Below are positions 3,157 through 26,760 of a DNA stretch of 64,000 nucleotides, piece by piece. Under the pieces are notes generated by a model, which did not search any database, was not told the origin of the DNA, and saw only the letters and a program-made list of their open reading frames with translations. Position numbers and translations under genes: made by a program. Origin of the DNA: Hymenopellis radicata (taxonomy: Eukaryota > Basidiomycota > Agaricomycetes > Agaricales > Physalacriaceae); the NCBI GenBank assembly GCA_015501595.1, contig JADNRX010000303.1, forward strand, positions 1-64,000. The letters run 5' to 3'. How positions within the stretch are numbered: position 1 is the stretch's first letter; the number at the start of each line of letters is the position of its first letter.

Positions 3157-3258
3157 CAAGGGGGTACCGGAAATGCGGGCCGGCACCCCGGGCAGGTAGG
3201 TAGGGTCCCCGCCGGAGGCCTTAAAAATTTTTTGGACCTCACCTTGGGGGGTACCATT
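3157..3258. repeat. Short dispersed repeat, CAAGGGGGT end
   Basis: Begins CAAGGGGGTACC and contains GGTAGGTAGGGTC followed by an A/T run. It is similar in layout to the repeats at 3395-3548, 7350-7705 and 7938-8098, and lies in the centre of the foldback element. Confidence 0.4.
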
Positions 3259-3394
3259 GATAGCTCTAACTCACTTCTGAAGCATGTAAGCATGCTCTAG
3301 AGGATGAATTAAGTCCTGCAGTTGTGCATAGAGTGCCTATGCTACAGTAGCCCCGAAGTCTGGCAGATGACTAATCTATTTTCAGGAAGTGTCT

Positions 3395-3548
3395 CGACCG
3401 AGGTTTGAACCAGCCACCACAGTGACCCCGGGTAATTACCATATAAGGCAGGTAAGGTCACGTGAAGGTAGGTAGGTTCCGCCGCTGAGGGCTTAATGAA
3501 GAATTCAACCCCATGTGTTGAATAAGAATTTTGGGACCCCCTTGACTG
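3395..3548. repeat. Short dispersed repeat, inverted relative of 3157-3258
   Basis: Ends GGGACCCCCTTGACTGTAG, the complement of the left edge of the 3157 copy (CTGTAGTCAAGGGGGT). Carries the GGTAGGTAGG core. The two copies face each other in the centre of the foldback element. Confidence 0.4.
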
Positions 3549-3551
3549 TAG

Positions 3552-3688
3552 TATTTCGACCGTAAGTTCACAAAATTTTGAATTTTTTGACCTTCCCACA
3601 CCCGATAAGTGATCGGAGGCGTTTTCCGGTGTCCGATAAGGAAATTCGGAGGTCTTGTGACCTGTGACGTGAACTTACGGTCGAAATA
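3552..3688. repeat. 137-bp MITE with 20-bp perfect terminal inverted repeats
   Basis: Starts TATTTCGACCGTAAGTTCAC and ends with the exact complement, GTGAACTTACGGTCGAAATA. No coding capacity. The TTTCGACCG end is shared with the larger palindrome-ended insert at 7396-7653, so both may belong to one family. It sits inside the foldback element. Confidence 0.7.
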
Positions 3689-5724: not shown

Positions 5725-7349
5725 AGCCGCGAGACAATGGGGAAGCAGGAAGGAGAATGTTAGAGAACGTTGCCGTGGTGTTGGTCTGTCATGTGGTGGT
5801 GGTATTGTCATCGGCGTCTGGCGTTGTTGTTGTTGTAGTAGTGGGGAGCACGCTGTCTTGCTGAGGATGTCGTCGTCGTAGGGCCGTCGTTGCCTGCGAA
5901 TGAATCATATTAATCTAAAAGTCAAGTAGCAGAAAAAACACGCACCTCGCAGACATCGGCTGCCAGCAGGCAATGCAGTGTCGTATCGTCTACTTCTCTA
6001 CCGTAGGCGTCGTGTTGGGGCCGTGTCCCGAGATGTCATTGCCGTCGTCGTGGCCATGGACGTCGTGGCATCAAGCTGGAGCCGACATTGTCGGGAGGTC
6101 GACGGTCGTCCGGAGCGTGTCCCGTTGCTGTGTGAATGTAAGTGATGAGCAGAATACGGGGAAAGCACGCACCTCGACGACGCCGCGCTGTCTGTTGCTG
6201 TCAACAGACAGAGGTTCCGCCGTTGTCGCGCACCAAAATCGTTGTGTAGATCCGGATCTTCTGCACCTTAAGGACGTCGCCTGCAGCCGACAGCGCGGCA
6301 TCGGTCCCCAAGCCGTCTATCCCGCAGAGCACCGTCGTCATGGTGATGTCGTTGTTGCGGTGGTCGTTGTCGTGGTGGTGGAAGTGGCGGAGGTGGGATT
6401 GCCGCAATCGTGGTCGTCCAGAGATCTAGATCTTCGTGGCGACAGAGAAAAATCTGTGTTGTCTTTGTCATGTCGGCGTTCTGCTGGCGGTTGGGCAGCG
6501 GATGTTGCCGACATCGTGGTGCCGTTGTTGTCGAGATCATGGTCATGGGTGTGGGGGTACCGAGAGAACAGTTGTGGGCTTGTGGAGGGTGCGGTGGTGG
6601 CCGCGCTGTCGTCGTCGTCGTGGAGACGTGGTCAAGGTCCTCGTGGTGGGGTAGTCGTCGTCATCCTAGAGGTGTAGTCCTGTGCATGAAGATAAGTTCA
6701 TATTGAACAGCCAACAATACGTACCTTGACGACGTCGCCTGCCAGCAGACAGTGCGGCGTCGAGACCCCGAGCCAATATCCTGTATCCTCTGCCCAGTGA
6801 GGGGTCGCCAGCATTGTGTGTGAAGAGTTGCGGCCTCGTTGGAGGGCTTACGCGTCCAGCGGGGCCGCCGGGGCTCTTCAAGCCCGCGTATCCACGAAAA
6901 CAGAGAAAAAAAGCGCTAGATGGATGGAAAGCGACGCCCGGCAGACCCGCGTCCCAAGGTCGAGTCGTCGGAGACCAGGCGTCGCGAGGTGGTGGTGGTT
7001 GGAGGTCAAGATCTGACCATCGATCACCACTCGGATGATCAGTCCAGACGACGGAAGCGACCTCGGGATGGCTCCAGAGACGCAACGAAGCCCGCGCTCG
7101 CACTCGGATGTGTCGGGATGTGTTTACAGAGTGTATTCCTACATCTTTCAATTTGACCAATTTTTTGGGTGGTGTGGAACTATTACTCGCACTTATAGTA
7201 CGAGTAACATACAATGAACTGTAAGTATGAAGTACTTACAACTGGATTGGCAATGGATGTCAGTATCAATGCATGCATGTATGTTATTCTTAAATTTCAG
7301 AAGTAGCCACAAGGCTCCTCATACCAACTGGAGCAAAATATAACAAAAT

Positions 7350-7705
7350 CACAAGGGGGTTCCGGACTTAAAGTCCGATACACCCGGTAGGTAGGTACTG
7401 TAGCGTTTCGACCGGATATTCGGATATCGGGTCACGCCGGCCTACGAAGCGAACCTATATATAGTGGATATCGCGTCACGGTGCCTCTAAGCCAGGCACA
7501 GCTGTCCTAAAATAGAAATTTTCGGTCCCGCCTACGGCGGGACAGTCCAAATCGGGTAATTCCCGTCTCCGTGCCTGGCAACGAAGCTGTTCGCTGTAGG
7601 TTCGCGGCATATCGCGTCACAGACCGCGAACCTACGGTCGAAACGCTACAGTAGGGTCAACACGGAGGTCTGAAAAAAGTTTTTTGTACCACCTTAAATA
7701 TGACT
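7350..7705. repeat. Dispersed repeat carrying a nested palindrome-ended insert
   Basis: The outer repeat starts CAAGGGGGTTCC, continues to GGTAGGTA, then resumes after the insert as GTAGGGTCAAC...GTACCACC. The insert 7396-7653 has 19-bp perfect inverted ends (TACTGTAGCGTTTCGACCG and complement) and an inner GC-rich segment with ATCGCGTCAC repeats. The order of events is hAT-like element, then outer repeat, then insert. Confidence 0.6.
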
Positions 7706-7937
7706 ATAAAGGACACTTAAACAAGTCTTAGGACTCCAATTGAGTCTTTAACTAGTAAAAATACTATACATGTAACATATTTCCTATGCTAGCTTCAGTA
7801 CCGGGTCAAGCCAAGGCTGGGCTAGTACCCATATGGTCCCGTAAGTTCTCTGAGATATAATTAGTCCTAGTTTCAAGGCTCTCAGTAACTGAATATATCA
7901 GCTACAGGTGGTTCACAAAAGTGTCATAGACAAATTC

Positions 7938-8098
7938 TTGATTAAGGTGGCGCTCGAGACCCTAATTAGGCTGCCCCGCCAAAGGCGGGATCACGTGCAC
8001 TTACCATATATGGTAAGTGAGGTAGGTAGGGTCAAGCTTGAGGGCTGAAAAAAATTAAACAGCCCAGTGTACAAAATTATAATTTTGGAACCCCCTTG
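7938..8098. repeat. Short dispersed repeat, CAAGGGGGTTCC family
   Basis: Left edge TTAAGGTGGCGC, right edge GGAACCCCCTTG, with a GGTAGGTAGGGTC core and an A-rich stretch. Same organisation as the outer repeat at 7350-7705 but in the opposite orientation. Confidence 0.45.
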
Positions 8099-8522
8099 CA
8101 AAATCATAGATCTTACATAGACATTGAACCGTCGTTTGAAGCCGTATCACGCATTTCAGATGCGAGTACTGACATAACCCAACGGTATACAGTGAATACA
8201 TGTCCTAATGGTGCAGCTGCTTTAGCGTGCATGCGATACCCAGTTCAAGTCTGGAGGTCCCGTGTTCAACTCTCACTGGGTGCCATTTTGTTGCCGACTG
8301 ACGGGTCTTGACCGATCATAGCCGGTCTTGACTCGGTTACGGTTATGACCGGTTAAAACTGCTTAACCGGGTGTAACTTGACCGGTCAGGCTGCTTAACC
8401 GGTCACGGTTAACGGTTAGTTCAAAATCCCTATTTGCGTAACCGGTCCGGTCACCGGTCATGTCAGATTAAGGTCATTTAACCTGACTTAACCGGACTTT
8501 CGAACCCTAATAGCGGGCATTT

Positions 8523-9618
8523 TGTCAGATAAGAGTAGAGTGTGCACGGCACAAGTAACGCTCGATGTTGAAGGTGGGTTGGGCGAAGTTTTGTGGGAGA
8601 AGAGATTATTTGGTTCAGTGAAAGCGCGACGACACCGTTATGTAGGCGGTAGAGCCATTGTGACAGTCGCCAGTCGCCTACCCTTGAAGGTCCCAGCACC
8701 GTCCACCTCGCCACTATGGACAGGACTAAGCCAGCTGCCGAATTGGGCAGACAATGCGCTCGGGGTTACTGTATTAGAAAAACTGCCATCCAAAAAAGGC
8801 AATTTCAGTGGCGTCGGAATTTATTGGTGCTATTAGCAAGTGGTCCAGAGGTAAATACCACAATGGCGCCTTGGTTCCAAGTGTGGTGCTGCGTGCAGGA
8901 ATCCCCGAATGTGGCTGCAGCCGTGACTATTGTTTGGACAACAATGCGAATTTAGGACAATGCCTCGGTGCTTTTGAGTCATCTGAACGATATTATCGTC
9001 AGTTTTTGACGACATACGACTCGGAAATTCCCATGAACGTACTCGGCAGAAGTTGAGACTGGCGCCTCGAAATTCGTCCTAAACTCGGGAGGTATTCTGC
9101 AGAAAGGGGTAACTTCGTTATAATCATTCCAGGAAAAGCGAACAAAGGCTGCAGAACCTTGAACTTCATTGCCCCGGTAGATTTCACATCCGAGGCAAAA
9201 CCACGAATTTGAGCTGAACATACGTAAGTCCCAGTAACAGAAGCCGACTACGATTATAGGAAAGGGAGGAGTGAGTTCCAGTGCGCTGTTATAAGTAGCC
9301 TTTTTTCCGATTTTGCATGACGACGTAGCAGACTTGCGAAAAGAACGATGTGTCCAGGCATGGAAGGATTTGATAACAGGCAAAGGGTTTCGTGAGCTAA
9401 TGTCGGATAAGATGTGTACAGAACGCGTTCGCCGTAGCCGTAGTGCCAGTATGTGTTCTATTAGGCTGAGCAGTGAAAAACGGCTAGGAGAGTAAGAAAG
9501 TACTAACCCGCAGTCTTTCTAGATTAGGCGCGCGTGAGCTGTATACATTGCCAGTGGAAATCAGTTGGTTAACGCATAGATTATGGAGGCTGCTGAGCAT
9601 GTTTTATCCAACATGGAA
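8523..9618. other. Upstream region without an assignable gene
   Basis: Lies between the start codon of the split host gene (minus strand) and the large transposon. It should hold the 5' region of the split gene. Open frames occur on both strands (for example plus 8522-8836 and minus 9383-8979), but none shows a recognisable family, splice pattern or clear start, so none is called. Confidence 0.4.
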
Positions 9619-9626
9619 GTAGCGAA

Positions 9627-9810
9627 TAGAGATCGGCACGAGTGGCAGATACTTGCGGGTGCCGGCAAGTATTTCGATCACCCGGGTGGTGCCGCACCCG
9701 GCACCCGGGTGGCAAGTACTTGTTTCCCATGGGTGGTGCCGTGGGTGGCAAGTACGAGCTCGGCGAGGCAAGTACTTGCCACAAGTACTTGCCTAGTACT
9801 TGTACGTAGG
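9627..9810. repeat. Left end of 14.2 kb element: TIR and AGTACTTGCC repeats
   Basis: After the 19-bp TIR come repeated CAAGTACTTGCC units, including the back-to-back pair at about 9770-9800, and CCCGGGTGG units. These are probable transposase-binding subterminal repeats, mirrored at 23638-23830. Confidence 0.7.
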
Positions 9811-10222
9811 TAGATATATATTATACATGATTTATCCAAATTTATTTGACGTCAAACGACCTCAACGTCGCTCAGAAACGACGTTGCCGAAGAATTTCGG
9901 TGATCGCCGAGATGGCCGAAGGTCCCGGCACTTGCCGGATAACAATCGACATCAGGAAAATCACTTTGGCATTAGGCTAACTTAAGTATATGCCTAAATC
10001 TAGAGGTATTTAGAGGGCGTCTAGTTACCATGGCTAACTCAAGTCAACTTGGGCTAACTTGGCAAATAAGAATATCTTTGAGTCATATCAAGTTCACCTA
10101 ATAGTGCTCTAGAATATAGCATATCATCAGCACACCTTCAAACACCCTGATATACCTTTCAGATAAGACCTAATCTAACTTAACTCAAATCCACTAAAGG
10201 TTGAGAGAGTTGAACCAATGTA

Positions 10223-13200
10223 TTATACTTTATATAAAGTCTGATATGTATATAAACTAAGCCAGTTATTTACTAAGAACGTATCTACAGTATCCAAAAT
10301 ATTCTTAGTCGTCCAAGTGTCGTCCAACTCACTCTTACCAAAGTGAGGAATCAATACACAACTCTGACGAACATTAGCCAAAGGTATGATAGACCATGTA
10401 CGTGTTTGGTTATCCCGCAAGTATGCAGTTTCCACCGTTGGCATGTTATGGGATCTGCGATCGCTGGAAGAAAGTTTTGGAGGCATATACCATTCCACGT
10501 ATGCTAGCGCGTGTCGTGGCCAATAGGAAGGTGCATTGATCATGATGGTGCCCTGAAGTCGAAAGGTTTCTGGTAATCGAAAAATAACATGTATACGCCC
10601 GATTCGAGTGCCTGTTAAATCGCGTTAGAAGAAGACTATCAGCAAGAGAAATTACATACCAGTAAGGCCAGTAGTTTCAGCCTTATCTCCAGTATACACA
10701 ACCACCGTATCAAAGCGACCACCGCTCAACGGTGAAGCTTTAACAGTATCGCGATCATCAGAGTTATCGTCCACGCTCTCCAGGCTGAACTTGAAGGAGT
10801 GATAGACGTCCACGCCCTGGAATGGTAAAGGAAATGTCGCTGCAGGCTTCTTGATGACAGACTCGCGCAAGAGATTGATATACTCCTTGAGGTGATCGCC
10901 AAAAAGCGGCACGCGATGGTGCTTCTCGATGAGGGAGATTGATTTGTTGGGGGATGTAGGGAACTTGGGAAGAAGAATAGTTTGAGGATCCTTAAGCTGT
11001 GGAGTTGGCTTGGACTGCGACTTAGACGTAGGTGGCGTCTGACCGGCAGCAGGTTTTGATGTAGAAAGAGGGGTAGGGGAAGGGGGAGGAGGAGCACGCT
11101 GAGCAAGAGCCCAATCAACATAGCGTCCAAACATATGAACACCCTCTTGTCGAAGTATCCAATGAGTCATCTGTGGTGCCTCGTCACGCTTGTTGGAGGC
11201 CCGCCACGCCTTTTTGGCAAAGTCGATATGAAGGTGTTCAAACATCTCGGTATTGAAGTTGTTGGTGGTTCCCAAAGAGCGAATCATGTCGACATAATGT
11301 AGGAGGGAGTGGAACTTGGGAATATTGAGATCGTCGCGAACTCCAACAGCGATAAAGTAATCCTTGTTGTCGTGCCAGGTCTCGAGCGCATCAGTCATGT
11401 ACTGAAGGGTGTCGTCGTCATGGGTGGAGTACTGTGCAAGGTAGATGAAATCCAAAATAGCGCGACAAGCAGTAATACCTTGACTGCTCATGCGCGATCC
11501 CACCAAACAACCCAACAGAATTTTCCCCATATTTTTCCTTTCACTCCCACTAATCTGCGACAGCGCAGAAATCCCATTCTTGAAATGACGAAGCCCAAGA
11601 CCAGGAGGAAGACAGCGAATGCGCCGATCAAGTTCCTTCTTGGTTAAAAGAATTTGGCACCATTCAATCAGATGCTTGAGAACGCCTTGGTATAGCTGAT
11701 GAAGGACGTCGGGGGTGATAGAGAAGTGAATGTCGGTGAAAGGGAGACCCTCCCAGAATGGTCGGGTCACGTACCCAGAAACCTCTTCAGCCATACAGGC
11801 TTTGAAGTACTGAGCTGTAGATGAAGTGGTGGCGCGAGCATTGCTTATAACGCCTAACGTCCAGGTGTGCGTGCGGAGGTCAGAAGGAGAGCGGTCTCCT
11901 AGATGCGCAGCAGAAACCTGGCATTTGGGACAGGTGCCGTACTTGCTACAGGTGACGAGACATTGTTCTGGGAAATCCGCCACGTAGCTAGCAAGAATAG
12001 GGTGAACGTGCCGAACCTCCCCATTACCGCCTACCATCTGGACGCCATCCTTGCCAGCATCAATGAGGGGGGAAAGGATGATGCGCATGGCATGGTGAAA
12101 CAGACGCTGATAGCGAGCACTGTGTTCCCGCTTGGTAAGACGGCCCTTGGACATCTTCTCGACTGGGAGGTAGGCGATGAGAATGCAGACTTGTTCCGTA
12201 GGCTTCCGACGCAGGGCATTCGGAATATTGCCAAGCGTTAGATATACAGGATACGCCTGTTTGCTGCCGGAGAATTGTGTAAGCTGCGTCTTGTCGGTAG
12301 CCAAGATGACTGGCGCAATCGTTCGTCCTTCAGGAAGCATAGCCTAAACACATTTAAGCCATTGAAACTAAGGAGCATATAGAGACGCACCTGAATATGA
12401 GACCACCATTTGGAGGTCCACATCTCATTATACACCCGCTTGGTCTTTGATGCGTCAGTGAACACGCTCTTCGGCCGGTAGACAAGGTGCTCTGAGAGCG
12501 ACAGATCTCCCCAAAGGCTTTTGATGGCTCGGAGAACGTCTCGATGGCGAAGGACAAACTTGTCGTCTGGTCGGTCCGGGAAGGAAAGATGCTTCACGCG
12601 CCATTTTCCAGCTCGAGGAGGAACAGAATCCACGACCTTGTGTAATCCTCGTATGCTGTCGTAGGAGAGTCCCAACTTCTCCTTGACCTACATAGAGGCG
12701 TAAGTGGGGATAACAATAAAGAGGGACCAAGAAACACACCCCAGGAATCTTGAGTAGGCGGTCGAAGGAGTTGTGTCCAATTCCATCCTTTACCACCCAT
12801 TGTGCTACGCGCCAGTCCAGCTCGGAAGCGAATGGTGCATAGATATTGGAAGAAGGAGGTGGATCTTGCCCCTCCATGGCTATATCGCCATCCGGGTCAC
12901 CAAAAATATCCCGCCAGCGATGATGAAGGGACTCGTCCATCTGAACAACTACGCCGGCGCCCTTGTACTCCACCTCTACCCGTGTATCATCATCATCATC
13001 CAGAATGCGACGTGTTGCCCCAAGGAGAGTGCCCAGACGGCGACTCTCAGTGGTGGCGGGACCCGGGCCAGCCTCCCCAATGCCCACCTGCTCTGACGGC
13101 TCCAGGTTAACGAAATGAAAGATGTCGTTGTCCTCCTCGAACTCCCGCAAAACCTCGGCAGGCTCGTCGCTGTCGTATCCATCATCGCTACCATCTTCAT

Positions 13201-13441
13201 CGTCGGAGTCTACAGCATCACGCAAGTCCGGCATGTCCGCACTTTCCATTGGCAGGGCATCCTCCACAGCGTCGGCGGTGTCCGGAGGAGGGTCCTCGCT
13301 GGTGACCTCAGCCGCTTTGTTCTTTTCGAAGGTGTAAAACCATTTGCAGTCTTTCGCCTGCCGGACGTGTGAGTTTCGGCCTTGCGCAGTGGCAAAATGA
13401 CGACCGCAACCGGCAGGACAGATGAGGGGATCAATGTTCAT
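10223..13441 (-). CDS. Plavaka-class transposase
   Basis: DNA transposase of the fungal Plavaka family, a Tnp2/CACTA- and KDZ-related group, acting on the element's own ends. Exons by splice reading: 13441-12740, 12687-12391, 12343-10660, 10611-10223. Together they give 3,072 nt, exactly 1,023 codons plus stop, with no internal stop. The N-terminus has a C2H2-like finger (CPAGCGRHF...SHVRQ), then an acidic linker. The core carries the family's hallmark strings MLPEGRTIAPVILATDKTQLT, CSKYGTCPKC and NFNTEMFEHLHIDFAK. The C-terminal exon contains LAYVEWYMP and VNNWLSLYT, as in relatives. It is the only transposase seen in the 14.2 kb element, so it is the obvious driver. Family assignment is from remembered motif similarity, not a search. 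Confidence 0.9.
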
Positions 13442-13557
13442 GGCGAAGAGGGGAGAGGAGGAGAAAAGATGGGGACAGGTTTACTGTTTGATGGAATCTG
13501 TCTGCATATAAGAGGGTCTCAGCTTATCATGTGAATACCAGGACATACCGTAGAATA

Positions 13558-15456
13558 TCAACGGCGTGGAACAGCCAACGAATCCCCGTCAACACGCCGC
13601 ATACATTTGCCATCTGGGCCTCGCAGGATTATCGATGAATTCCCGGAGCATCGGCACAATCGCATGCGAGTATCCTCCATGGTAAAGGCCGAATAAATGC
13701 CGCGTGCAGCAGCCTGAGAAATGTATTGCCGCTGCAAGCGCCGTCCGCTACGAATGATTCCCTTGCGTAAGCCCATCAGGATATTATTGTTAACGGTGCG
13801 CTCTTGGCTTTCGTCGAGGATGACGACGGAGTACTTGGTGAGATCCGGATCGCGCATGGCCTCCTGGAGCAGTATGCCATCGGTCAAGTACGTGAGGATG
13901 GTCGTATCAGAGTTGACAAGCTCCTCGAAGCGGATAGAATAGTGGACGTGTTCTCTAAGGTCCACTGCGACACAATGAGCGGTGCATGCTGGGGCTATAA
14001 AGGAACACATACCGTCCATTTCCTTGCCTACTCGTTCAGCAAGCGATGTCGCTGATCATCGTGCCTTTGAGATGCGGAAGGTCTGAGTATATGACGAATT
14101 GTGGTATCCTGTCGACTCGATTAGGCATGTGGAGTGACAAGATTTGAGAAAGGACGAACTGTGTGCTTTTCCCGGATCCAGTTTTGCCTGTGAGCAGCAT
14201 TACTTGATTGTTGGACTGGAACTACGATAGAGACCTCAACGAGTTCGCGGGTCACGCGGATACTCGGGTACTCGATCCGGCCGGGGGTCTCGGCTACTCG
14301 ACTGGTTCGATCCGCGGATCAATAACGAGTCGGATCATATAAGGATCACGAGTACAGCCTTGGAGGCACGAGTACTCGTCGCGAGTACTCGGTCTGACTC
14401 GCAATAATGTAGATATATATTTTAACTAAATTTACAAATTTTTTAGAAGTTAAACGGACCCTTGCGTGGCCCAAATGAGCCGTTCGCGTGAATTTCTTGC
14501 AAATTCTCACGATCCGGCAAATGCCGACTGGCCGCGTAAGCGTGCGATCGAGTCGTTTTACTTGCCTCTTACCATCACTACCGCCACCCAGAGTGCGACG
14601 ATTGTCGCCTCTGCCGCTCTGACGACTGTCAGGCGGCCATCGGGGTGTGTTCTTCCACCTTGGCTGCATGCCGGGTGGTGTATCTTGGCCTTCGCTCCGT
14701 GCTGAGCCTGCTGCTGCTGTCTTTATGACAGCAGCAGAGGAGGACGACAACGACGACTGGACGGCGGTCGATGGATGACGACACTACGACGACGCTGGAC
14801 AACGCCAACGCAACAACGCGTCTACGATGACGCGTCGACGACGACACCAATGACAAGATGACGGGGTGATGGTGGTGGCGGCGCGACGGCGATGCGAGGC
14901 GAGAACAGTGTCATGGTGAGTTTCTTTTCCTTTCTGCATTCACTCCCACCCCGCCACCACCACCACCACCACTTCCACCACCACATCACCTCCACCACCA
15001 CCTCCACCCTCAGTCCCTGCTTCATGCACGGCTGAGTGTCCCCGTGCAATTGCCCGGGGATGCTCGCCGGGCATGAATGGACCTTTGGTTGGGTGAGTGT
15101 ATGCGAGGTGATGTGCAAGTATTTTTTACTCGTCGGTGATCCGGATCGCCTGCGAGTACTCGCCGGAATCGCGAGTACTCGACTCGTTTGACTCGCGAGT
15201 CAACGCGGGTCGAGTCAAACACGGATCACGAGTAGCCTCTTCCGGCCTCGAGTACTCGCCACTCGGATCGCGAGTCAGACCCGGATCTGACTCGTTGAGG
15301 TCTCTACGAAGCAGAGATGAAACCAAAGGCTTACCGTATATGTTGAGCTTGTAGGGCTCCGCGCGAATGAAACGGTGAAGGGCGGTGTCTGACTTGACTA
15401 GGTCTCGATAGATCTTGTTGATAATACCGGTGCCCGCGAGCTCAAAAGGCAACGCA
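13558..15456 (-). pseudogene. Decayed DEAH-box helicase fragment (Prp43/DHX15-like)
   Basis: Minus-strand pieces of a DEAH RNA helicase. 15456-15345 has an N-terminal part ending at a GTAAGC donor. 14213-14040 has SNNQVMLLTGKTGSGKST (P-loop, but GKTGSGKS where the family has GETGSGKS) and a shortened continuation. 14019-13700 has YSIRFEEL, LTYLTDGILLQEAMRDPDL and VVILDESQERT (family: DEAHERT). The ATP-binding and Walker B motifs are changed and later motifs are absent, so it should be non-functional. The element at 14228-15306 sits in the intron between the first two pieces. Its place inside the 14.2 kb transposon indicates capture of host DNA. Prp43-like subfamily is a guess from the EAMRDPDL string. 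Confidence 0.7.
14228..15306. mobile_element. Nested 1.1 kb non-autonomous relative of the 14.2 kb element
   Basis: Ends TAGAGACCTCAACGAGT and exact complement, matching the pattern TAGAGAYC...ACGAGT of the 14.2 kb element. The subterminal regions are full of CGAGTACTCG/GCGAGTACTC units, echoing the AGTACTTGCC units of the larger element. No coding domain. The flanks share only a few bases (TCG or, with shifted ends, TCGTAG), so no clean 8-bp duplication is visible. A hairpin of CTGCTGCTGTC and its complement lies at 14709-14737. It is inserted in the intron of the captured helicase fragment. Confidence 0.75.
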
Positions 15457-15459
15457 AAG

Positions 15460-16935
15460 TGATAGTAGTGCTGTCGTCGGGTGATGCGACGTCGTGTCCA
15501 AGTTAACGTCGTGAGGGCGTGTCGGGCTGGTGATGAGCGTTGCGGAGTGAGCGCAGGAGTCTGGTATTAACCAAGAGACGATGATCTGCATTGATTGATT
15601 CCATTTAAGAAACCGGGAGCGAGATGTCCATGAGGATAGCAATTGCTGCTAGCTTTTTCAAGCGAGAAAAGCGGGTGTTTGAGTAGCGTGGAGGGTACTG
15701 AAAGGGAGATGACATTGGGGAGACGAACATGTGAATGTGTGCGCAATATAGGGTGACGAGGATTCGTGAAGGCTGCGTGGGCAATAAAAGAGAGGGCCGG
15801 GGTGGATGTGTTTTCGTAGGCGTATAGCCAGACATTTTTTCCTGGGGATATTTGGCGCGTAGTGCCATCGTCGGGTGATGCGGTGTCGTGGCCTCGGAGA
15901 AGGTGGTGGTGAGAGGAGAGTCGTCGATGACGGCACCAGTCCTGGTCGCGGGGAATTCTGCGTGCGTTCTCCTAAACGCCGTTATTGATGATATTTGACG
16001 CGTCTGGTAATGATGAAGAGTCGGCGTCGAATATTCAAGCGAGAAAAGTGGGCGTTTGAGTAGCGTGGAGGGTACGGAAAGGGAGAGGGCATTGGGGAGA
16101 AGAGCATTTCGCGGTCGTCTTCCTGGACAGCGTTGGGGGTGGTAAGAGTGTTGGTAGCCCTCAGGCGAACGTGCTGAAATTGGCCGCTATCACCTGCGGC
16201 GGTGTTGTTCGCCGGGACGACAATGGGTGGGATGGACGTGCGGCAGGTGAGGGATGGAAATAGGCCCGCTGTTTTTCGCTTTGCAAGTACATCAGTAGAG
16301 CAGAAAAAATATAGAGAGCAAATTAAAGATGCACCGTTGACGCCCCCACACCCGTTTCTAGTACATTCAAACAAAATGACCTGTCTTGAATGGTCGTTTG
16401 GTGAGGCGGCGTTGCATAGAACGCGTCCGATTGTGAAGTAGTGGTGGTAGGAAGAGAGTGGATTAATGATCGTTTCGATCACAGCATAGAGTGGGTCTCC
16501 GGTGGTTGTTCTGACAGCGTTCCGGGATAAAATACATTCGGAAGAGGAGGAATGAAGTGACCGGGTATATGGTGAGTTTCTCTTACATTTCTGCTGCCAG
16601 TAAGGCCTTCAGTAAGGCTTCGGCGAACCAGTAACTTTCCATCTGGGAAAGTCACCACATAGACCTTGGTACTGAATACACTTCAGTATTCCTGGCCGGC
16701 ACACAGCTGCTGGGTAGTGGCTAGCGCATGTTTAATTAGCATGCCACTTGTAGGATGATTTTCCCCAAGCAAGGAGACAATAGAGCTCGACGTTGTTGGC
16801 TGTATGATCAGTGATTGATCGTGCAGTTGAGCATCGTACCTCTTGCCTCTCGCCGCCATCATCTGCCAACGTTTACACTCTGCAACCTCGACCTCATCCC
16901 GTTCCTCAGCAAATCTCTCAGTGTACTATTGACAG
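15460..16935. other. No gene; internal direct repeats
   Basis: Part of the 14.2 kb element between the helicase fragment and the plus-strand cargo. A segment of about 73 bp beginning TTCAAGCGAGAAAAG occurs at 15658 and again at 16035 with about 90% identity, and GTCGGGTGATGCG occurs near 15475 and 15870, so the region arose partly by duplication. Minus-strand open frames through these repeats have no recognisable domain. The upstream sequence of the small basic gene starts here. Confidence 0.45.
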
Positions 16936-17472
16936 ATGCTACGGACGCGTGCACAGGCCAACGTGAAGAAGAAAAAGCGGACGGAAAGCCAGAAACAGGC
17001 GGAGAGGGCCTATGAGCAGCGTAACAAGGAGAGACGCCGGGAAAAGTCACGCGAATATCAAGCTCGGTGTGTACTACTTCTCTCTTTGTGTCTACTTTCT
17101 TATGAATGTGACGCTCAGAAAACGCGCCGAAGCTGTCTCTCTACCTCCGGAGGAGCAAGCTGTCTACAACACCAAAAAAAGGGAATATGCAGCTACCTAC
17201 CGGGAGAAGGAGAGAGTACCATTACTGGCAAGGCGCAATACTCCCGGTGGTTGTATGTGTAGATTTTTTATTCAGTGTTCGCGGATTTAACGCCGTTGAT
17301 TAGAGCGAAACGTCGTGCAAATGACGATCTCCTCCCTCGTGCCGGCAAGCTCAAGCGTCCAGAGGATTACAATGAAGGATATCAGGAGCATCAAGACAGG
17401 CGAAACGAATGGAAGCGGGGCGAGCGTCAACGTGTTATTGCTAAAAGGGAGAATGGAGGTGATAACGCCTAA
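16936..17472 (+). CDS. Small basic, charged helical protein (transposon cargo)
   Basis: Exon 1 (16936-17066) encodes a Lys/Arg-rich helix (MLRTRAQANVKKKKRTE, AYEQRNKERRREKSREYQ) resembling the basic region of a bZIP protein but without a clear leucine zipper. A 52-nt intron (GTGTGT...CTCAG) joins it in frame to 17119 onward, RKRAEAVSLPPEEQAVYN. A third piece ending at 17472 (LKRPEDYNEGYQEHQDRRNEW...) continues the same composition, but its splice junction near 17247-17303 is unclear. I do not recognise a family. A nuclear or DNA-binding role is suggested only by composition and by its place next to the dioxygenase gene in the transposon. Confidence 0.45.
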
Positions 17473-17800
17473 GTTTTGACTTATCGTCTGCATACTCACG
17501 TCTTCGTACGGTATTGAGAGATTATTGAAAGCTGTTATGATAATATCTTGCCCCCACTCTTGAGGAATCTTCTGAGGTGCGAGAGTATTTCATTCAGATA
17601 TGGGAAACTCACCACTCAAGGGCTGATGTTTGTTGTTTGTTCCACTCCGATGACTCGTTGTCTTTTGTTCAACAACCACCACCTTCGCTGCTCTTTTACC
17701 ACTTGCCCCCTCCCCTTGAACATGCCCAAAGGTGATTTCCATTTCCTTATTCTATCTTCTGCATGCAGAAGACCTCGGGAACACTCTTGACAGCAGACCT

Positions 17801-19771
17801 ATGTATAGTCAGGCCGACCTTGAGCAGGATTATGTAGGCCCGCCGTTGCGGTTGTTCCTCCGGCCCTCTAGCTTTCCTATTTCTGTCTTCTGCCTTCCTT
17901 TGATCCTCAGAGCTGACAGAACTTTTAGCACCCCCGCTGCTGCTGGGCAATCGGGGTCAACATACGCAGGCCGTACAACTCGCTCCAACACGATCTTCTC
18001 CGCATACGACATCGACTTCGGCGCGCCCATCCATGCACCGACATACGACCTCTCATCAGGACTTGCGGAAACTGCCCGTGCACAGGACAGGCAGTGGATG
18101 CAGGACGCAGAGGGCCTCGCTAATGAGATGCCTGCTGATGGTGGCGGTGGCGACGTTGATGGCAGCGACGGTCCCGATGGCGGTGATGACGGTACTGATG
18201 GCGGCGATGACGAGGAGGAGGAGGAGCTTGATATCGAGTTTGACCATGGTGGCTACAGGCACGGTGTTCCAGTCAAGTGCGCGTCGAGTAGGATGCCACC
18301 TGCTGCATCATCCCTCCTCTCTGGGCAACCTGCTGCTACGTCGTCGACCCTATCAATTCCATCCCCATCCACCCCATCCTCATCTACCCCGTCCTCTGCC
18401 TATTCATCTCACTCAGCATCGCCAGCCTCCTCCAGCTCCTTCACGCTTGGTGAGGCTGAAACCTTTACCTGGCGTCAAAAGAAGAACCTTGAGCATAGGG
18501 CTAGGCTAAAGCTAAGGAGGTCTCAGCAGCTGAGCTCTGATCCCTCCTGTTCAGGTGGCTCGTCTTCCACACCCTCATCTTCCGCGCCCTATATGAAGGG
18601 TGTCACTAAACGTCGCCTCGCAGAGATGGACGACCCTATTCGTATTGACGACTATGACCATATGGATGCACCCGTTACGGCGCCTGGTTGGATTGGGCGT
18701 ACACAGGATTTGCCTCGCTCCTCTCTCAATCTTGAAGAGGCACTAAAGCTGGGTACGCTTCAGACAGTATACTGGAATGGCCGGTAAGTTCTCTAAGACC
18801 CTCTTCTATCGCATCTCATTCCTGTCTAGGCAAACGCGCACAGTTGTTGATGCACATGGTCGCATCATTATGCTTCTAGGTGGTCGTCCACGCGATCAAC
18901 CTGGTAAAAGTACTGGAATGTCCTATTCTGAGGCCCTTGCTAGCACGGAGGCCTCATTTCGACGTGCTCGAAGGCGTACCAAGAAGCGAAAACACCGACG
19001 AGGCAAATTTCAGGAACATACTGTCGGAGCGTCTTTCGGAGGTGGCCAAGTTGAGCCCTCTATTCTTCGACAACATCCCGCCGATGTAGATGGCATTGAA
19101 GAAAATATCTCCAACCCTGGCCTTGAGCGGATTACTGGTTGGACTAATCGTAAGTGATATTCAACGCTCTCGTTCAAATTTAATCTTACATCATACCAGA
19201 CCTCTTCAAGACTTTCCAGCCTGATCTGTATGAAAAAGGTATGGAGGATATGCGAACTCTTGTTGGCGTTATTCCGGGCCTTGCCAATCCCTTTCCCGGC
19301 GGTATTCCTGGAGGATTTTGGGCTGGAGCAACGAGTAATATCGGTCATCGAACGGTAACATGATCACATACAGATCAGGGCAACCTTGCCTGGTCTTGGT
19401 GCGCCATTACTGCACTTGGGAATTATAATCCTGACAAGGGTGGGCACCTCATTGTCTGGGATCTCGGACTTATTATTCGTTTTCCACCTGGCTCGACGAT
19501 TATGATGCCGTCTGCTCTGCTCACGCACTCTAACGTCGAAATTCAGCAGGATGAAGAGCGCATGTCCGTTGTGCATTTTTCTGCTGGTGGTTTATTTCGA
19601 TATGTTCAAAATGGATGCATTACTGATAAGGAGTTTATCGCGGAGGTTTGGCCAAGTATGACGGAGGAGGGACGAGCTGTCTGGTGGTCTGAGAGGGAGT
19701 CTCGTTGGCAGAACGCCTTGAACAAGATGTCTACTTGGGATGATATTCTTCGTAGATCACAGTCTTCGTAG
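17801..19771 (+). pseudogene. TET/JBP-like 2-oxoglutarate/Fe(II) dioxygenase, premature stop
   Basis: Predicted nuclear dioxygenase; TET/JBP enzymes oxidise the methyl group of modified thymine or 5-methylcytosine in DNA. Exons 17801-17850, 17911-18783, 18830-19149 and 19200-19771 sum to 605 codons in one frame. The first half is Ser/Pro/acidic low-complexity. The catalytic half begins near HRRGKF and ASFGGGQ and continues with HTDQGNLAWSWCAITALG (HxD iron ligands), GGHLIVWDLG, FPPGSTIMMPSALLTHSN (distal His) and AGGLFRYVQNG. One TGA at 19361-19363 (codon 469) falls two codons before the HxD His, so normal translation would lose the active site. The gene is otherwise clean, which suggests a recent mutation or a sequence error. 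Family call is from motif recall; another agaricomycete 2OG-Fe(II) clade is the alternative. Confidence 0.62.
19361..19363 (+). other. In-frame TGA in the dioxygenase gene
   Basis: Reading ...NIGHRTVT, stop, SHTDQGN...; no plausible intron removes it, since the only GT...AG pair around it is 19 nt. Confidence 0.75.
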
Positions 19772-20195
19772 ATCACAGTCTTCGTAGATCTTGTCGAATA
19801 TATCTTATTTTTTAATGTCGTATTTGAGTGAATTTATATGTATGCGTTGCAAAGCTCATACAGTCTGGGAAAGTTACCACATAAGAATAGCGAGTGACGG
19901 AGACATGTCACATATAATCACGCTCACTCCAACCACCATCATGCCATGTCGTCTCCCGTGCTCAAGTCTCTATCTGCCACCTCCCGCCTCCAAATATTTC
20001 TGGATATCGTACGACTTTATTCTAGGATTACGTCTTGCACTGCACTGCCTGGAGCCCCGCCGAACATCCCGCCGTTGTTAAGCGGGCATGAGGCATTAAA
20101 TGTGGGAATTTTAGAAGTTATAAAAGGACCTGCTGTGCGCCCTCCATTCTCATTCTCTCTTTCCTTCTTTCCCTCACACTTTCTAATATTCTGCC

Positions 20196-22403
20196 ATATC
20201 GAAGCGTCAACCCAAGGCATCTCTGAAGCTCTCTGATCCCAACAACGTCGCCAAGCATGCCGCTAGCAAGAACAAGAAGGTGAAGGCGGCGGCGGCGTCG
20301 TCTACCAAGAAAGCACCGGCTGCTCCTCGCCTAGTGCCTGCAAAGCTTGCTGCTCCTGGCAAAGTCGCCAAGCCTACCGTTATTTCCCGGCCACCTACAC
20401 CACCGACATCCTCTCCATCGACATCCTCCTCGGGGTCTGCACCTCTGACGAAGGCTGAGAAAGCTCATCTTGCTGACCTTAATAAGCGCAAGCGTGAGGC
20501 TGAGCGCGCAGCAGAGGCTAAGCGCCAGGAAGGTGTGTATATTTGCTGCTATATATCTCTCTACTAATAAGCCTATATAGCTATACATGCTCGCGCTGAC
20601 AAGCTCAAGTTCGAGGAGGAGGCAAACGAGGATGAGGATGAGGACGACGTTGAGAACGCTTCACCCTCTCCTGCCTCGGATGACGAAAAGCTTCGGCATA
20701 TTTTTGGTCCTTCTGCGTCTAACGGCTATGAAGACGGTAATGTGCATACTTCTATTTTAGAGCGTGCTGATGATTTCCTATTAGAAAATGCTAAGCAGAT
20801 CCTCATGAGGCGCTACGAAAAGACTTGGGGTAGGGACGATGAGCTTGATCCTGATCGAGATATGGGCGGCGACGACGAAGAGACATTTATCAAGGCTGAG
20901 CAGGAGGAGATGAAGCTTGACCCTCACGCTGATGAGGAGGAGGATAGCGAGGAGGAGGATAGTGAGGAGGATGTTATGCAAGCAGAACCAGCTGCTGAGA
21001 GCGATAACGAGGTGCGTCACAGTGCTTATTTACTGAATGCTATTCAACTAATATTTTTTAGATGGATACTGAGGACGTCACTCCAGCAACTCCTCTCAAG
21101 AAGCGTCGTCGTCAAAGCACATCTACCAACTCCTCCCCTCTTGCCAAACACCAGCGCAAGGATCGTCTCGCTAATTCTCCTCAGATCAAATTGAACCGCT
21201 CCTCTGTTCAACGCAGGGCATACAAGGTCACCAGGAGTCGAATGAGCCCTCGTCAAGGCAGTCTTGCGGATATCAGCAAGAAGATGGCTCGACGACGTGC
21301 TGCCATTGAGGATGCATACCCTGCCTCTGATGATCGCCCAAGCTTCAATGTTAATACTCTACACATGGCTGCGAACGACTCGGAGATTGGTTCTGAGGAG
21401 CATCAAGCTACCTTGATTCGCCTACGCAAGAATCCTCAAGCGCTCTCCGATACTGCTGTCTATGTACGTTTCTCAAATATGCTCAACAGTTTCTTACAGT
21501 TCTATAGGCTGGCTATGCGCGTGATGCGCTTCTCAATTCCTGCATTAATCGTGCGCGCCAGGATGTTGAAGGTGTTTATGGCCTTCCAGGAAAGCTTTCA
21601 CAGTCCAGCATTCGTAAACGTGTTCTCTTTCTAGCGGAGAACGGTGTATTCAAGTTTGGTGAGATCGATTTAGAGGTGTGTTCTCTGGTTACCTGTTGAA
21701 TCTAAACTAACTATTGTTTTAGAATGAGACGTATAACGAGCGTCAGCCTTGGGGGTCCTCTATATTCAGTAGCCTTCCTCGAAGTCAATTTGTCACCGGC
21801 AAGGGTACCGCAGATAGCGAGGTGTTTCGCTACTTAACACAGAAGAAGCTGGTACCTCGGGAAATCTTTGTCCTTGTTGCAACGGTGGTAGGTCTTTAAT
21901 TTTCATCATACCCTATGCTCATCTGTCCATAGTATGAGTTTGCTATTCTTCAGTGGCGCACTGGCACCTTGGATAACGCTGAGTTTACATCAGCTGTTCG
22001 AACTCGGTATGATATCTTGCTATTTTATTTCTTTGCTTATATTTTGGTTTTAGCTACCTGGCTCATGGCGCCTCCTGGGATCTCATGATGGAGGAAATGC
22101 CTACCTATACTCTTCATCTTCAAAAGAAGACCTTTGAGCGTATCATGTATGTCTTCTTTTATATCTGTGCACTGTTCTGATCATTCTGCTAGGACGCACT
22201 CAAATAAAGGATTTGTTCTTGATCAAGACGCTAACGATATGGCAAAGGTGGACTTTCAAGACCTTGAGGCTGAGGCTTTAGCTGAGCAGGAGGAGGAGGA
22301 GCGTGCTGAGGCTGCTGCAGAGAAGGCGCGTGCTGAAGCTGCTGCAGAAAAGGCGCGGGTTAAGGCTGCTAAGGCTAAGGGAAAGGCAAAGGCGTCCTCC
22401 TAA
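20196..22403 (+). CDS. DUF6532-like basic protein, start codon lost (ATA)
   Basis: Nine exons (20196-20532, 20581-20736, 20785-21011, 21062-21463, 21508-21675, 21723-21887, 21933-22006, 22054-22146, 22193-22403) join to 611 codons without a stop. The first codon in the expected start context (GCC ATA TCG AAG) is ATA, with an in-frame stop just upstream and no early in-frame ATG, so the start appears mutated from ATG. The N-terminal half is Lys/Ala/Pro-rich and acidic, with a KKRRR cluster typical of nuclear proteins. The C-terminal half (YARDALLNSCI, FRYLTQKKLVPREIFVLVAT, ILQWRTGTLD) resembles the basidiomycete DUF6532 domain. The tail has repeated EKARAEAAA. Role unknown; it neighbours the dioxygenase gene within the transposon. 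Confidence 0.65.
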
Positions 22404-23637
22404 TTTAATTCATTCATAATTCGTACTGGTTTTTTTTGCTGTCGTTACCGCTGATTCTATAACCTACATTTGCCTAATTTGACTTGCTTGTTTCTGATAC
22501 AACTTGGTATGACCTAAGGATTGATTTAATTTTAATATATTTTATTAAATGTATATTAAATTAAATATAAGATTATAGAGAAAACTTAAGAATAACTTAA
22601 AAAATCTACGGTCAACCTGAAATAATTTATATTAATATTAATATATCTAGAATATACCTAGATATACCTAAATATAACTTTATATTGATTTATAGATACT
22701 TAGAGGTAACTTGAGTTAACTTGAGTAGTCTTAGGAAGCATTGAAGTTAACTTGAAGATCGCTTACTTATGGACTGTGTGTTAAGTCAACTTTGTGTTAT
22801 CACAAACTTCTTATCTCTAAGTTGACTATATGCCCTATAGACGACTGTAGCATACTTGAAGACAACACCTATTTTCCTGATGGATCTACTTGGATCTGAC
22901 TGCTTCTGCTCTTACCACCACAGCACGATGTTCGTGTCGTGCTCGTCGGCCCCAGAAAATTTTCTGGGGCTTCTCTGATATCTTCTCTCTCTGCTGGATT
23001 GCTTTCTCTGTGCGGTTTGGCTTCGCGCCGGCCGCTGCGCCCTCGGATACGTTCCGGGGCGCATTCTGGTGTTCGTCTTCGCGACGACACTAATCTGACG
23101 ACTCTCCCCGACGCGTAAGCCCTCAGGATGAGGCTGCCGTACCGGTGCACAGCGGGCGCGGGTGCTTGGACGACAATGCTGGTTGCTGCTGCCCTTGGAC
23201 TCGGTTTTCTGTGTGCTGGCGCTCGTCTTCGCGACGGCGCCGTCTAGGCCACGACCTGTCCCGCGTAAGCCCGATGAGGCCGCCCTATTCTGGAACAGCG
23301 GGCTCAGGTGCGACGCTCAATTAGCCCCCGCGCCGTTGTATACTCACCCAGCAACAGAGCGAGCAGCAGGACTTTTGGGCGGGACAGCGCCGCGGACGCT
23401 TCCAGCCAAGACGGTACGTGTTTCTATATTCTCATTGCATTCTTACTGAAATCTATTGAAGGACAACGACGACGCTCAGGACGACGACCACGATCCCTCC
23501 TCCACCAACTACACTTTGTTGAGTCCCGGTTGCTGCTTTTGCAAGTAGCCGGGGCTTCAGCAATTTGTATCGTGCACGTCGCTAGCCCCCGCACAATTGC
23601 TCGGAGGTCGGCGGCGGGCACGAATCATACGCTGAAT
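22404..23637. other. Non-coding part of the 14.2 kb element
   Basis: 22500-22860 is AT-rich with many AACTTGAGTTAACTT-like units similar to those at 9970-10190, suggesting paired inner subterminal repeats. 22880-23600 is GC-rich with no recognisable gene. A perfect 22-bp palindrome is at 22949-22970, directly after an AGCACGA...TCGTGCT hairpin. Confidence 0.5.
22949..22970. repeat. Perfect 22-bp palindrome
   Basis: The half-site GCCCCAGAAAA is followed by its exact complement with no loop. A hairpin AGCACGA/TCGTGCT lies just before it (22922-22943). It may be a protein-binding dyad; no function is assignable. Confidence 0.55.
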
Positions 23638-23830
23638 GTGGCAAGTACTTGCGCACCCGGATGGTGCAAATACTTGCCTGTCGGGCAAGTACTTGCCAAG
23701 TACTTGACCCGCGGGTCAAGTACTTGCGGGTGGCAAGTATTTTGGTGGATGGCAAGTACAGGTTTTGGGTACCAAGTATTTGCCGGACGGGTGGCGGGTG
23801 CACCCGGGTACCCACTCGTGCCGATCTCTA
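23638..23830. repeat. Right end of 14.2 kb element: AGTACTTGCC repeats and TIR
   Basis: About eight GGCAAGTACTTG units (some degenerate), CCCGGGTG and CACCCGG motifs, then the TIR ending GATCTCTA at 23830. Mirrors 9627-9810. Confidence 0.7.
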
Positions 23831-24085
23831 GTAGCGAAAAAGCCTAGAAAAAGCCGATCGTTCTCTGAACTCCGACCATCGCTAGCACGTTTTGACGGAT
23901 ATCAACTTTCCCTCCGACCAGTCATCATATTATTCTACGACCACACTAAAAGCTTGACAGCTTTGATCATCACCGTTGCCTTTGTACAGCCATGGTTTAC
24001 GATTTTGATTAGGGAACAGTACCGACCCGAACGATATAAATGCGACCACATTCTCTACTTTCGTGACTTCGTCGGCATCTCCATC

Positions 24086-26760
24086 ATGGCTCAGATGTTC
24101 TGGGGCATTTGCTATCAGCATAACCATCACACCATCTCCCTCCCTCTACTGCAGGTCTCTGCAACAGCCACGGTCAAGGAACTAGGCGCGCAGGTCAAAT
24201 TGACGCAGAAATTCGTCAACGATGCGACCATTCCCATCGAAGCAGTCTATTCGTTTCTGGTGCCCGCTCGTGCGGCTGTATGTCATTTTATAATGGTGAA
24301 GCAGGACGGAACTAGGGTACAAGGCCTCGTCCAAGAGAAGTCAGAGGCGCGAGAGACCTACGATGCGGCCTTGGCCGAAGGGAAAACTGTGTCTTTAGCG
24401 ACCCAGCAAACACCGGATGGTGAGTTGCATTTACTTCTATCATTCTTCGTTTCGAGTGACTAAGTACTTTACAGTATTTCAAGTCTCTGTCGGGAACCTT
24501 GCCCCTCAGGAGGAAATCCAAATTGAGCTCACTTACGCGACAGAACTCACAGATGTCAGAGGACGAGGAAAACGATTCCATCCGGCTACATCTCCCCGCG
24601 CACATTGGCTGTCGTTACGGCCAAGCTCCTTCACCAATTATAACCACCAAATCCCCGTTCATTAACGTCGACGTTTCTGTCGAATCTGTCTCTCCCATCA
24701 AGAAAATCGGCTCTCCGTCTAATTCCATCTCAACAGAGCTTGGTCCGGATCCTTCGCTTCCTAGCATACAGGATCTTCCCTTTTTCAACTATGCACGAGT
24801 TTATTTGGCCTCGAACAGTCCACTGGAGAAGGACTTTGTCCTCACCATCCAGTCGGCTGGCCTCGATACACCTCGCTGCATAGCTGAGCGTCATCCGGAG
24901 CACGAAAGCATTGGAGTGTTGCTGACTCTTGTGCTGCGTTTCCACCTCCCCGAACTCGGCAGTCAGGAATTTATCTTCTTGGTTGACCGTAGTGGGTCCA
25001 TGCAAGGAAATCGTATCACTGCGGCTCGGAGGGCACTCATCATCATGCTCCGCTCGCTTCCCCACAAGAACACAGCTTTCCAGATCGTGTCCTTTGGTAA
25101 TAGGACATCCATGCTCTGGGAGGATAGCAGTAGACTCTACGACCAACAGACTCTTGATGAAGCCACCCGGCATGTGGACGACATCCAGGCAGATTACGGC
25201 GGAACACAGATTGGCTACGCACTATCGACGTGTTTTGAGAAGCGTAAATTCGATCGTCTGACCAGCGTCGTAGTTCTTACCGATGGTGACGCGTGGGATA
25301 ACGAGAGCATCTTTCAGACCGTAATGGGTGCTGTGGGCTCTGCGTCGAGCGGCGCGTACTTATGCATGTTCTGTCTGGGTATTGGCAACTCTGCATCCAC
25401 GGCGATGTGTGAGGGCATTGGGCGGGCTGGGAACGGGACGAGTATAATGGTGGGGGAAGACGAAGCGAGTATTACCGGCAAAGTTGCTAGACTCCTCACG
25501 GCTGCGAGGACTCCTCATATTTCGAAAGTTCGCATCGACTGGGACAGACCTAAGGAAGCGGAAGACGATTTCGAGATGGTCGATGAGATGGAAACGGCGA
25601 TTGTGGAGGAGGGTCAGAAGCATAAGTTGAACATATTTGACGAAAGCGTAGACGCTGTGCACATGGACAGTATGGAGGCCCCTCCCCAGTACCCGTTCTC
25701 CTCTCACCACCTTCGGATATCCAACAAAGTCCCCTCAAGATTGAATCGTTGCTACCTGGATTTCGACTCAATGTATATGCTATTTTGCAAGGTTAGTCAA
25801 TGTTCTCATTCGTTCATCGTCCTTTCTTAATAGGCAAGCACACGTTGCCAAGGACAGTTACCATTCGCGGAACAATGCAAGACGGCTCTGAAATCGAGCT
25901 ACGAGTGTCTATAACGTTCAGCGGTCTCCCGAACGATACAAGTGGGGCACCTCCACCCATCCATGCCCTCGCTGCGCGGAAAATCGTACAGGAACTTGAA
26001 GACGGGCGCTACGACGAGCTGCTCAAAGCTTCCTACCCGGATTCTGATCTCCGCAAGGTCGTGGATGCTCAGATCGTCCGCCTTGGAAGAACATACTCTA
26101 TCGTGTCATCACAAACGTCGTTCGTGGCTGTAGATGACAAGTCTTCCATCCCACCCTCCGCCCAGCCTTCCTTGTTTACTGAAATGACGCGCACCATGCG
26201 CAGGGCAGGATGTCTGTTATCCAGAGTGCTGCAGGTTCAAAGTATCGAGACATTCCAAAGCTAGAGCCCATTACCGCGCGTCTCCAACTCACCGCTTCCG
26301 TCGATCTTGGTGGCACCTCGCAGAAACCAGACTTGGCCATGTGTGCATCCGTAGTTTCGCCGCGTGTTAGAAGTAAACGAGGTGCGGCGCGTCGTGAGTC
26401 GAGGCAGGCCTCTACCAGCGAATCCAAGCGCCTATGGATGTATTGGAATCGCTAGCGCGTATGCAGTTGTTTGATGGGAGTTTTTCGATGAAGGCGCTTT
26501 CGGTCTTGAAGGAAGGAGGACTGGCGGAGGACCAAGCGAGAGCTGCGTTTCCTGAAGGCACGCAGGATGTTGTTGTTGCTACGGTTCTGGCGGTGGCGTT
26601 CATTTCGGCGCAGGCGGCGATTTGTGGGACAGACGACAAGGTGGTTTGGGAGGGTTTGTTGAAGAAGGCTTGGGAATATTTAAAGGTGGAGCTGGGCGGT
26701 GTGGAGGAGGTCGATGAGCTTGTGAAGAAAGCTGGTACTGTTTTTGTAAGTCTTGAGTAG
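24086..26760 (+). pseudogene. VIT and VWA domain protein, frame-disrupted
   Basis: Fungal protein with a VIT (inter-alpha-trypsin-type) domain and a von Willebrand A domain, families usually involved in protein interaction. Exon 1 (24086-24419) and the start of exon 2 (from 24475) encode the VIT part (VSATATVKELGAQVKL, VGNLAPQEEIQIEL). The VWA part has a complete MIDAS core, FLVDRSGSMQGNRI, and VVVLTDGDAWDNES. A 42-nt intron is at 25792-25833. The frame changes at about 24549-24556 (TELTD to SEDEENDS), about 25690-25725 (before IQQSPLKIESLL), and probably near 26220-26245 and 26400-26425. The C-terminal part (LESLARMQLFDGSF to 26757) is still recognisable. Several changes in one gene suggest pseudogenisation, but indel errors would look the same. 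The 14.2 kb transposon sits about 250 bp upstream of the ATG. Confidence 0.75.

Follow-up and report, generated by a model that had tools for sequence, protein, structure and literature searches.

The 64,000-nucleotide stretch of Hymenopellis radicata DNA analysed here and termed the window (assembly GCA_015501595.1, contig JADNRX010000303.1, positions 1 to 64,000 of the forward strand) holds a 12,933-bp transposon of the PlavakaB type nested in a 1.27-kb miniature inverted-repeat transposable element (MITE). The transposon carries an uninterrupted Plavaka transposase frame, a candidate TET/JBP-like dioxygenase that is broken in both copies read, a DUF6532 gene and an internal slot whose host-gene fragments differ from copy to copy. 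We assign a probability of about 0.8 to the explanation as a whole, namely that a nested PlavakaB element bears a Tet_JBP-like dioxygenase and a DUF6532 gene, takes up host sequence in its slot and counters host silencing.

Boundaries and nesting of the two elements

The original prediction had described a complete 14.2-kb Plavaka transposon delimited by perfect 19-bp terminal inverted repeats (TIRs) and a perfect 8-bp target-site duplication (TSD). Both repeats are present exactly where they had been placed, but they are the ends of the 1.27-kb MITE, and the real Plavaka element lies inside it. The features that delimit the two elements are as follows.

9619-9626, unstranded: left 8-bp TSD of the outer MITE, GTAGCGAA, delimited by the flank overlap at the empty site on contig C473
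9627-9949, plus strand: left part of the interrupted MITE, beginning with the TIR at 9627-9645; 98.8% identity to positions 1-323 of the uninterrupted copy at locus L001
9948-9949, unstranded: left 2-bp TSD (GA) of the Plavaka element, from comparison with two uninterrupted MITE copies
9950-22882, unstranded: PlavakaB-type transposon of 12,933 bp, the true unit, with a 12-bp TIR of its own; its ends recur in a second copy that lies at an unrelated site
9950-9961, plus strand: left 12-bp TIR, CATCAGGAAAAT, from comparison with uninterrupted MITEs and a genome-wide 12-mer search
22871-22882, minus strand: right 12-bp TIR, ATTTTCCTGATG, the reverse complement of the left end CATCAGGAAAAT
22883-22884, unstranded: right 2-bp TSD (GA) of the Plavaka element; an uninterrupted MITE has one GA here
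22883-23830, plus strand: right part of the interrupted MITE, closing with the TIR at 23812-23830; 98.1% identity to the rest of the L001 copy
23831-23838, unstranded: right 8-bp TSD of the outer MITE, GTAGCGAA, a perfect match to the left one

The exact 19-bp TIR was found 32 times (14 + 18, the two ends in the window included) in the 75.5 Mb genome assembly (G000), against 0 for a reversed control. Recurrence of the TIR through the genome was therefore borne out, but the copies that it marks are short: loci were cut around 30 of the 32 places and contained 19 distinct elements of 1,203-1,338 bp. A perfect 8-bp TSD flanks 15 of these but not the other four, and one further locus (L012) had a single MITE end only. 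The closest of these copies, L001 and L029 (~98%), run on through the position of the 12.9 kb, and since they match both sides of it unbroken, the window contains a MITE into which 12.9 kb have been inserted. The left 323 bp of this interrupted MITE are 98-99% identical to two MITE copies and 82-97% identical to the other 17, which places it within the MITE family and not at its root. The outer element alone resembles the short MITEs with a 19-bp TIR and an 8-bp TSD, which we take to be hAT- or Zisupton-like.

The anticipated empty site also exists, judged by coordinates: the flanks of the 14.2-kb unit meet on C473 (32020-32790 and 32783-33638, at 85% and 92% identity) with an 8-bp overlap, and they nearly meet on C596 too. 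This site shows only the absence there of the MITE plus its insert. A small element that encloses the real transposon can thus have perfect TIRs, a perfect TSD and even an empty site.

The ends of the inner element are marked by repeats of their own. For its terminal 12-mer CATCAGGAAAAT, 94 occurrences were counted in the genome and 3 for the reversed control. The terminal ~300 bp at the two ends contain AACTT 4 and 8 times, compared with a density of 0.17 per 300 bp over window positions 12001-19000. PlavakaB elements have been defined by CATCA..TGATG termini and a TSD of 2 or 3 bp (Kojima 2025, PMC12730594); such termini are present in the window and in the second copy, and a TSD of that length, GA, in one of the two copies, that of the window. 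Judging by transposase domain, ends and TSD, the inserted unit would be of the PlavakaB type (CACTA/EnSpm-related).

The second full copy, at C1132:7384-22497 (15,114 bp), shares its ends with the window element and also its three genes, whose order and orientation are unchanged. The pairing of a transposase with a TET/JBP-like gene in one delimited element, as originally claimed, is upheld by this copy, which has both, while the boundaries first proposed for it were wrong. The copy aligns with positions 1-3753 (93%), 6275-9441 (93%) and 9435-12933 (98%) of the insert. Over the ~500-600 bp compared on each side, its flanks have no match to the 19 MITEs or to the flanks of the 14.2-kb unit, and no sign of a segmental duplication with shared flanks was seen in them. 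The uneven divergence of the two copies, 93% on the left and in the middle and 98% on the right, suggests recombination or gene conversion between them.

In the order of events deduced here, the MITE inserted first, with an 8-bp duplication, and the 12,933-bp cut-and-paste transposon of the PlavakaB type then entered the MITE with a 2-bp GA duplication. The transposase would presumably cut at the 12-bp CATCAGG... ends, aided by the AACTT-rich subterminal repeats.

Genes of the inner element

The three genes of the element were located as follows.

10223-13441, minus strand: Plavaka transposase, exons 13441-12740, 12687-12391, 12343-10660 and 10611-10223
17801-19771, plus strand: 2-oxoglutarate- and Fe(II)-dependent (2OG-Fe(II)) dioxygenase, Tet_JBP-like, exons 17801-18783, 18830-19149 and 19200-19771, start codon putative
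19361-19363, plus strand: in-frame TGA in the dioxygenase, two codons before the HTD (HxD) motif
20187-22403, plus strand: multi-exon DUF6532 gene (PF20149), splice sites partly predicted
20595-21011, 21062-21463, 21517-21675, 21741-21890, 21933-22013 and 22203-22400, plus strand: exons of the DUF6532 gene, with a further one probably at about 20187-20500

The transposase product has the 1,023 aa first ascribed to it and no internal stop, and its main exon matches PF18759 with 280.3 bits (E 2.8e-83; cut-off 26.3); it is encoded, however, by four exons separated by three introns of 47-52 nt and not by one open reading frame (ORF). The main exon has 57 matches in the genome. The DUF6532-like protein was likewise recognised correctly, with 63.4 bits for PF20149 on the joined exon peptides (cut-off 24), whereas the separate small basic protein listed beside it most likely corresponds to that gene's first exon, to judge by frame and spacing. 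A predicted Collybiopsis confluens protein (P0175) has Plavaka and DUF6532 domains in one chain.

Between the window and C1132, the proportions of synonymous (pS) and nonsynonymous (pN) differences are 0.179 and 0.024 for the transposase (pN/pS 0.13), 0.066 and 0.012 for the dioxygenase (pN/pS 0.18), and 0.036 and 0.005 for the DUF6532 gene. Because the copies differ mostly silently, this suggests that all three genes were kept under conservation until recently.

As for the dioxygenase, an intact gene could not be confirmed in the window because of the in-frame TGA. The C1132 gene has no TGA at that site, but it is split by a 2,831-bp insertion just after the HTD motif; the insertion, which lies within the exon, has a 7-bp duplication and imperfect inverted ends. 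The dioxygenase core has 101 exon-level matches in the genome. On C515 a partial transposase match and a dioxygenase match lie ~3 kb apart and are divergent as in the window, and on C114 dioxygenase and transposase matches lie ~20 kb apart. The dioxygenases of C515, C114 and C715 were not concluded to be broken, as the stops counted in them may lie in introns.

The TET/JBP-like assignment of the original prediction holds in so far as the ORF at 19364-19771 resembles Tet_JBP (PF12851), at 18 bits; it falls below the curated Pfam cut-off of 34.9 bits, and the gene around it is interrupted by the TGA. Thirty relatives, chosen among 120 listed of 294, were aligned, and seven of them match PF12851 at E <= 0.01, the best (P0014) with 30.0 bits (E 3.6e-7), also under the cut-off. 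Tet_JBP nevertheless ranks first among Pfam families for the window core and is matched by more of the relatives than any other. The nearest relatives among the matches listed are from Hymenopellis radicata itself (56-59%), and the structure model of the closest one, P0001, has a predicted local distance difference test score (pLDDT) of 80.2. TET/JBP enzymes share the residue pattern HxD...H...R. The HTD of the window fits HxD, and the relatives retain the motif His (29/30), the Asp (30/30), the distal His (30/30) and an R at +64 (29/30). TET/JBP membership is weak, with the window core, the family consensus, P0001 and P0014 all staying under the Pfam cut-off.

The variant is set apart by an Asn at +5 and a Cys at +11 from the motif His, found in the window and in all 30 relatives. 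According to Kojima 2025 (PMC12730594), H, D/E and H are among the TET/JBP motif residues, the PE type, which is the one in Plavaka, is defined by HxE, and the AG type keeps Gly331 (Gly or Ser) and Asp337 of CcTET, at +5 and +11. The window and all 30 relatives have D in place of the E of the PE type, and they have N and C in place of the two AG-type residues, these positions being matched by offset and not by alignment to CcTET.

A role in DNA demethylation is likely for this enzyme. Its most likely action would have been to oxidise a methylated base in the DNA of the element itself, which would have relieved silencing by the host; the purifying selection seen between the copies is compatible with a function, and we infer an anti-silencing one.

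The variable slot

Between the transposase and the dioxygenase lies a segment in which the two copies have no sequence in common. Its contents in the window are these.

13703-16223, unstranded: variable slot, unmatched in C1132, where 1,883 bp of other sequence take its place
13706-14227, minus strand: host-gene fragment from a PRP43/DHX15-like DEAH helicase, composed of two non-adjacent pieces that meet at GCGC
14228-15306, unstranded: nested MITE of a second family, 1,079 bp, with a 17-bp TIR, TAGAGACCTCAACGAGT, and without TSD
15309-15465, minus strand: 157-bp fragment of another host gene

The helicase fragment (protein match E 3.6e-18) is 89% identical to C554:73255-73770 in one piece and 97% identical, over 36 bp, to C554:74298-74333 in the other, and 26 bp of the source are absent from it. 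A DEAH helicase was considered as a component of the element and rejected, because it is absent from C1132 and derives from a host gene on C554. The second-family MITE sits at the joint of the two host fragments. A perfect TSD flanks 22 of 25 other copies compared from this family and not the slot copy, and the helicase match overlaps the MITE by 3 bp. The 157-bp fragment is 97% identical to C1284:26229-26385 and 93%, 89% and 79% identical to three further loci; the frame adjoining its source on C1284 encodes a 2OG-FeII_Oxy_3 domain.

In C1132 the slot contains a fragment matching C577 (93%) and C910 (92%), downstream of an F-box frame that on the C577 locus scores 41.4 bits for PF12937, and part of the gene for ribosomal protein eL8, traced to C213 (98%) and C601 (97%). 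The remainder matches multicopy pieces. Two of them, one on each side of the eL8 fragment, are near neighbours on C687 and C278, and an older repeat may therefore have been interrupted by the eL8 sequence.

Microhomology of 4 bp and 3 bp was found at the slot junctions. These contents could be explained by capture during break repair, in which scraps of host genes would have been brought into one internal slot, different in each copy. Among the matches listed in a literature search on host-gene capture by Plavaka and on fungal Pack-CACTA elements, none concerned Plavaka. Two copies with differing scraps in the same slot offer a natural test bed for gene uptake by fungal CACTA-like elements.

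Alternatives, known systems and the insertion site

It could be argued that the complete autonomous element measures 14.2 kb after all and that the 1.27-kb MITEs are its internal-deletion derivatives, as it has the perfect 19-bp TIR and 8-bp TSD in common with them and, by coordinates, an empty site for its whole length. Yet the window lies inside the MITE family, at 98-99% to two copies and 82-97% to 17, the inner 12.9 kb has inverted ends of its own with a GA duplication at the breakpoints, and the C1132 copy, which has the inner ends and, in the flanks compared, no match to the MITE, is counted as refuting a reading that is hardly tenable. An alternative that is somewhat less remote, though still quite improbable, takes the 12.9-kb unit for a chance pile-up of a short Plavaka element, an unrelated dioxygenase and a DUF6532 gene that do not move together; the nested MITE and host fragments of the interior and the uneven divergence of the copies would agree with it. 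It is countered by C1132, where both ends and the three genes, ordered and oriented alike, recur at a different site, by the divergent pair of matches on C515, and by the PlavakaB elements with TET/JBP genes reported by Kojima 2025 (PMC12730594). That the dioxygenase is no DNA demethylase, acting on protein or another substrate or being a passenger, is unlikely but a serious consideration: Tet_JBP is reached only below the cut-off (spliced 315-aa core 24.3 bits, E 2e-5; family consensus 12.6 bits; none for P0001), weak 2OG-FeII_Oxy_3 matches appear in the consensus and in P0014, some relatives bear the UniRef name prolyl 4-hydroxylase, and the gene is broken in both copies read. The rank of Tet_JBP as best Pfam family for the core, with 7/30 relatives matching it, and the TET/JBP-type enzymes on published PlavakaB elements (PMC12730594) argue the other way, and a mere passenger is hard to reconcile with a pN/pS of 0.18.

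The explanation by a nested PlavakaB element with an anti-silencing dioxygenase has to be held against several observations of its own. The full-length copies read are two, the window and C1132, and in the latter no target duplication was seen (AG/TA) and a search for its empty site found none, because both flanks hold repeats. The C1132 transposase has one TAG and the C1132 dioxygenase one extra base in its first exon. On C715, transposase and dioxygenase matches lie within ~3 kb and face each other, in contrast to the arrangement in the window. Together with the damage to the dioxygenase in both copies and the score of its core, the failure of core sequence and family profile alike to retrieve any solved TET structure from the PDB, with E values of up to 10 allowed, also weighs on this side.

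The pairing of Plavaka with TET/JBP is not new as a class, since TET+ PlavakaB transposons are already described from Agaricus bisporus and Gymnopus confluens (Kojima 2025, PMC12730594). Those elements are like the window element in their ends, 2-bp TSD, Plavaka transposase and TET/JBP-like gene in one element; they differ in the enzyme, which is of PE type with HxE there, whereas the one here combines HxD with a +5 N and a +11 C. In the main text of that paper the words DUF6532 and "fragment" do not occur, and, next to the account given there, the dioxygenase variant and the swapped host fragments seem new. A well-bounded TET+ Plavaka element is thereby added, with a dioxygenase that was seemingly selected until recently.

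The AG-type dioxygenases (CcTET; Kyakuja and Zisupton elements) are likewise HxD enzymes carried by transposons in Agaricomycetes; they differ in having Gly331 and Asp337 of CcTET where 30/30 relatives, matched by offset, have Asn and Cys, and the family profile retrieves no TET from the PDB within the same E limit. We advance only tentatively, at rather less than even odds, that a further TET-like type (HxD, N +5, C +11) outside PE and AG occurs in mushroom PlavakaB elements together with a slot that would swap host fragments by microhomology-guided break repair. If true, an autonomous element would join an anti-silencing tool with gene shuffling.

In regard to gene capture, Pack-TYPE elements from plants (Gisby and Catoni 2022, PMC8903248) resemble the window element in holding a host gene fragment between TIRs; they are non-autonomous, whereas the carrier here has an intact transposase frame. 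A histone H3 gene in a fungal hAT element (transduplication), read as a captured transcript or retrocopy (PMC6710886), is similarly a case of a DNA transposon bearing host gene sequence. What distinguishes the present element from both is a Plavaka carrier with its own transposase and with slot fragments that differ by copy. Pleurotus Helitrons, as described in PMC4289320, hold captured genes of unknown origin and show no tendency to capture host genes.

Beside the insertion site, a VWA-domain gene lies at window positions 24460-25830. Relatives of the flank at 23831-24700 occur on several contigs; in four cases (C596, C846, C629 and C1335) the transposon-like 12-mer stands at the edge of the match. 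Hence not every CATCAGGAAAAT was accepted as a transposon end; on these four it is probably coding, as it lies at the edge of a stretch beside the VWA gene. A related flank locus without the MITE, C596:200369-205444, is split by two other insertions of ~1.24 and 2.1 kb. Farther along the window, positions 48555-49358 hold an exon of a P-type ATPase (PF00122).

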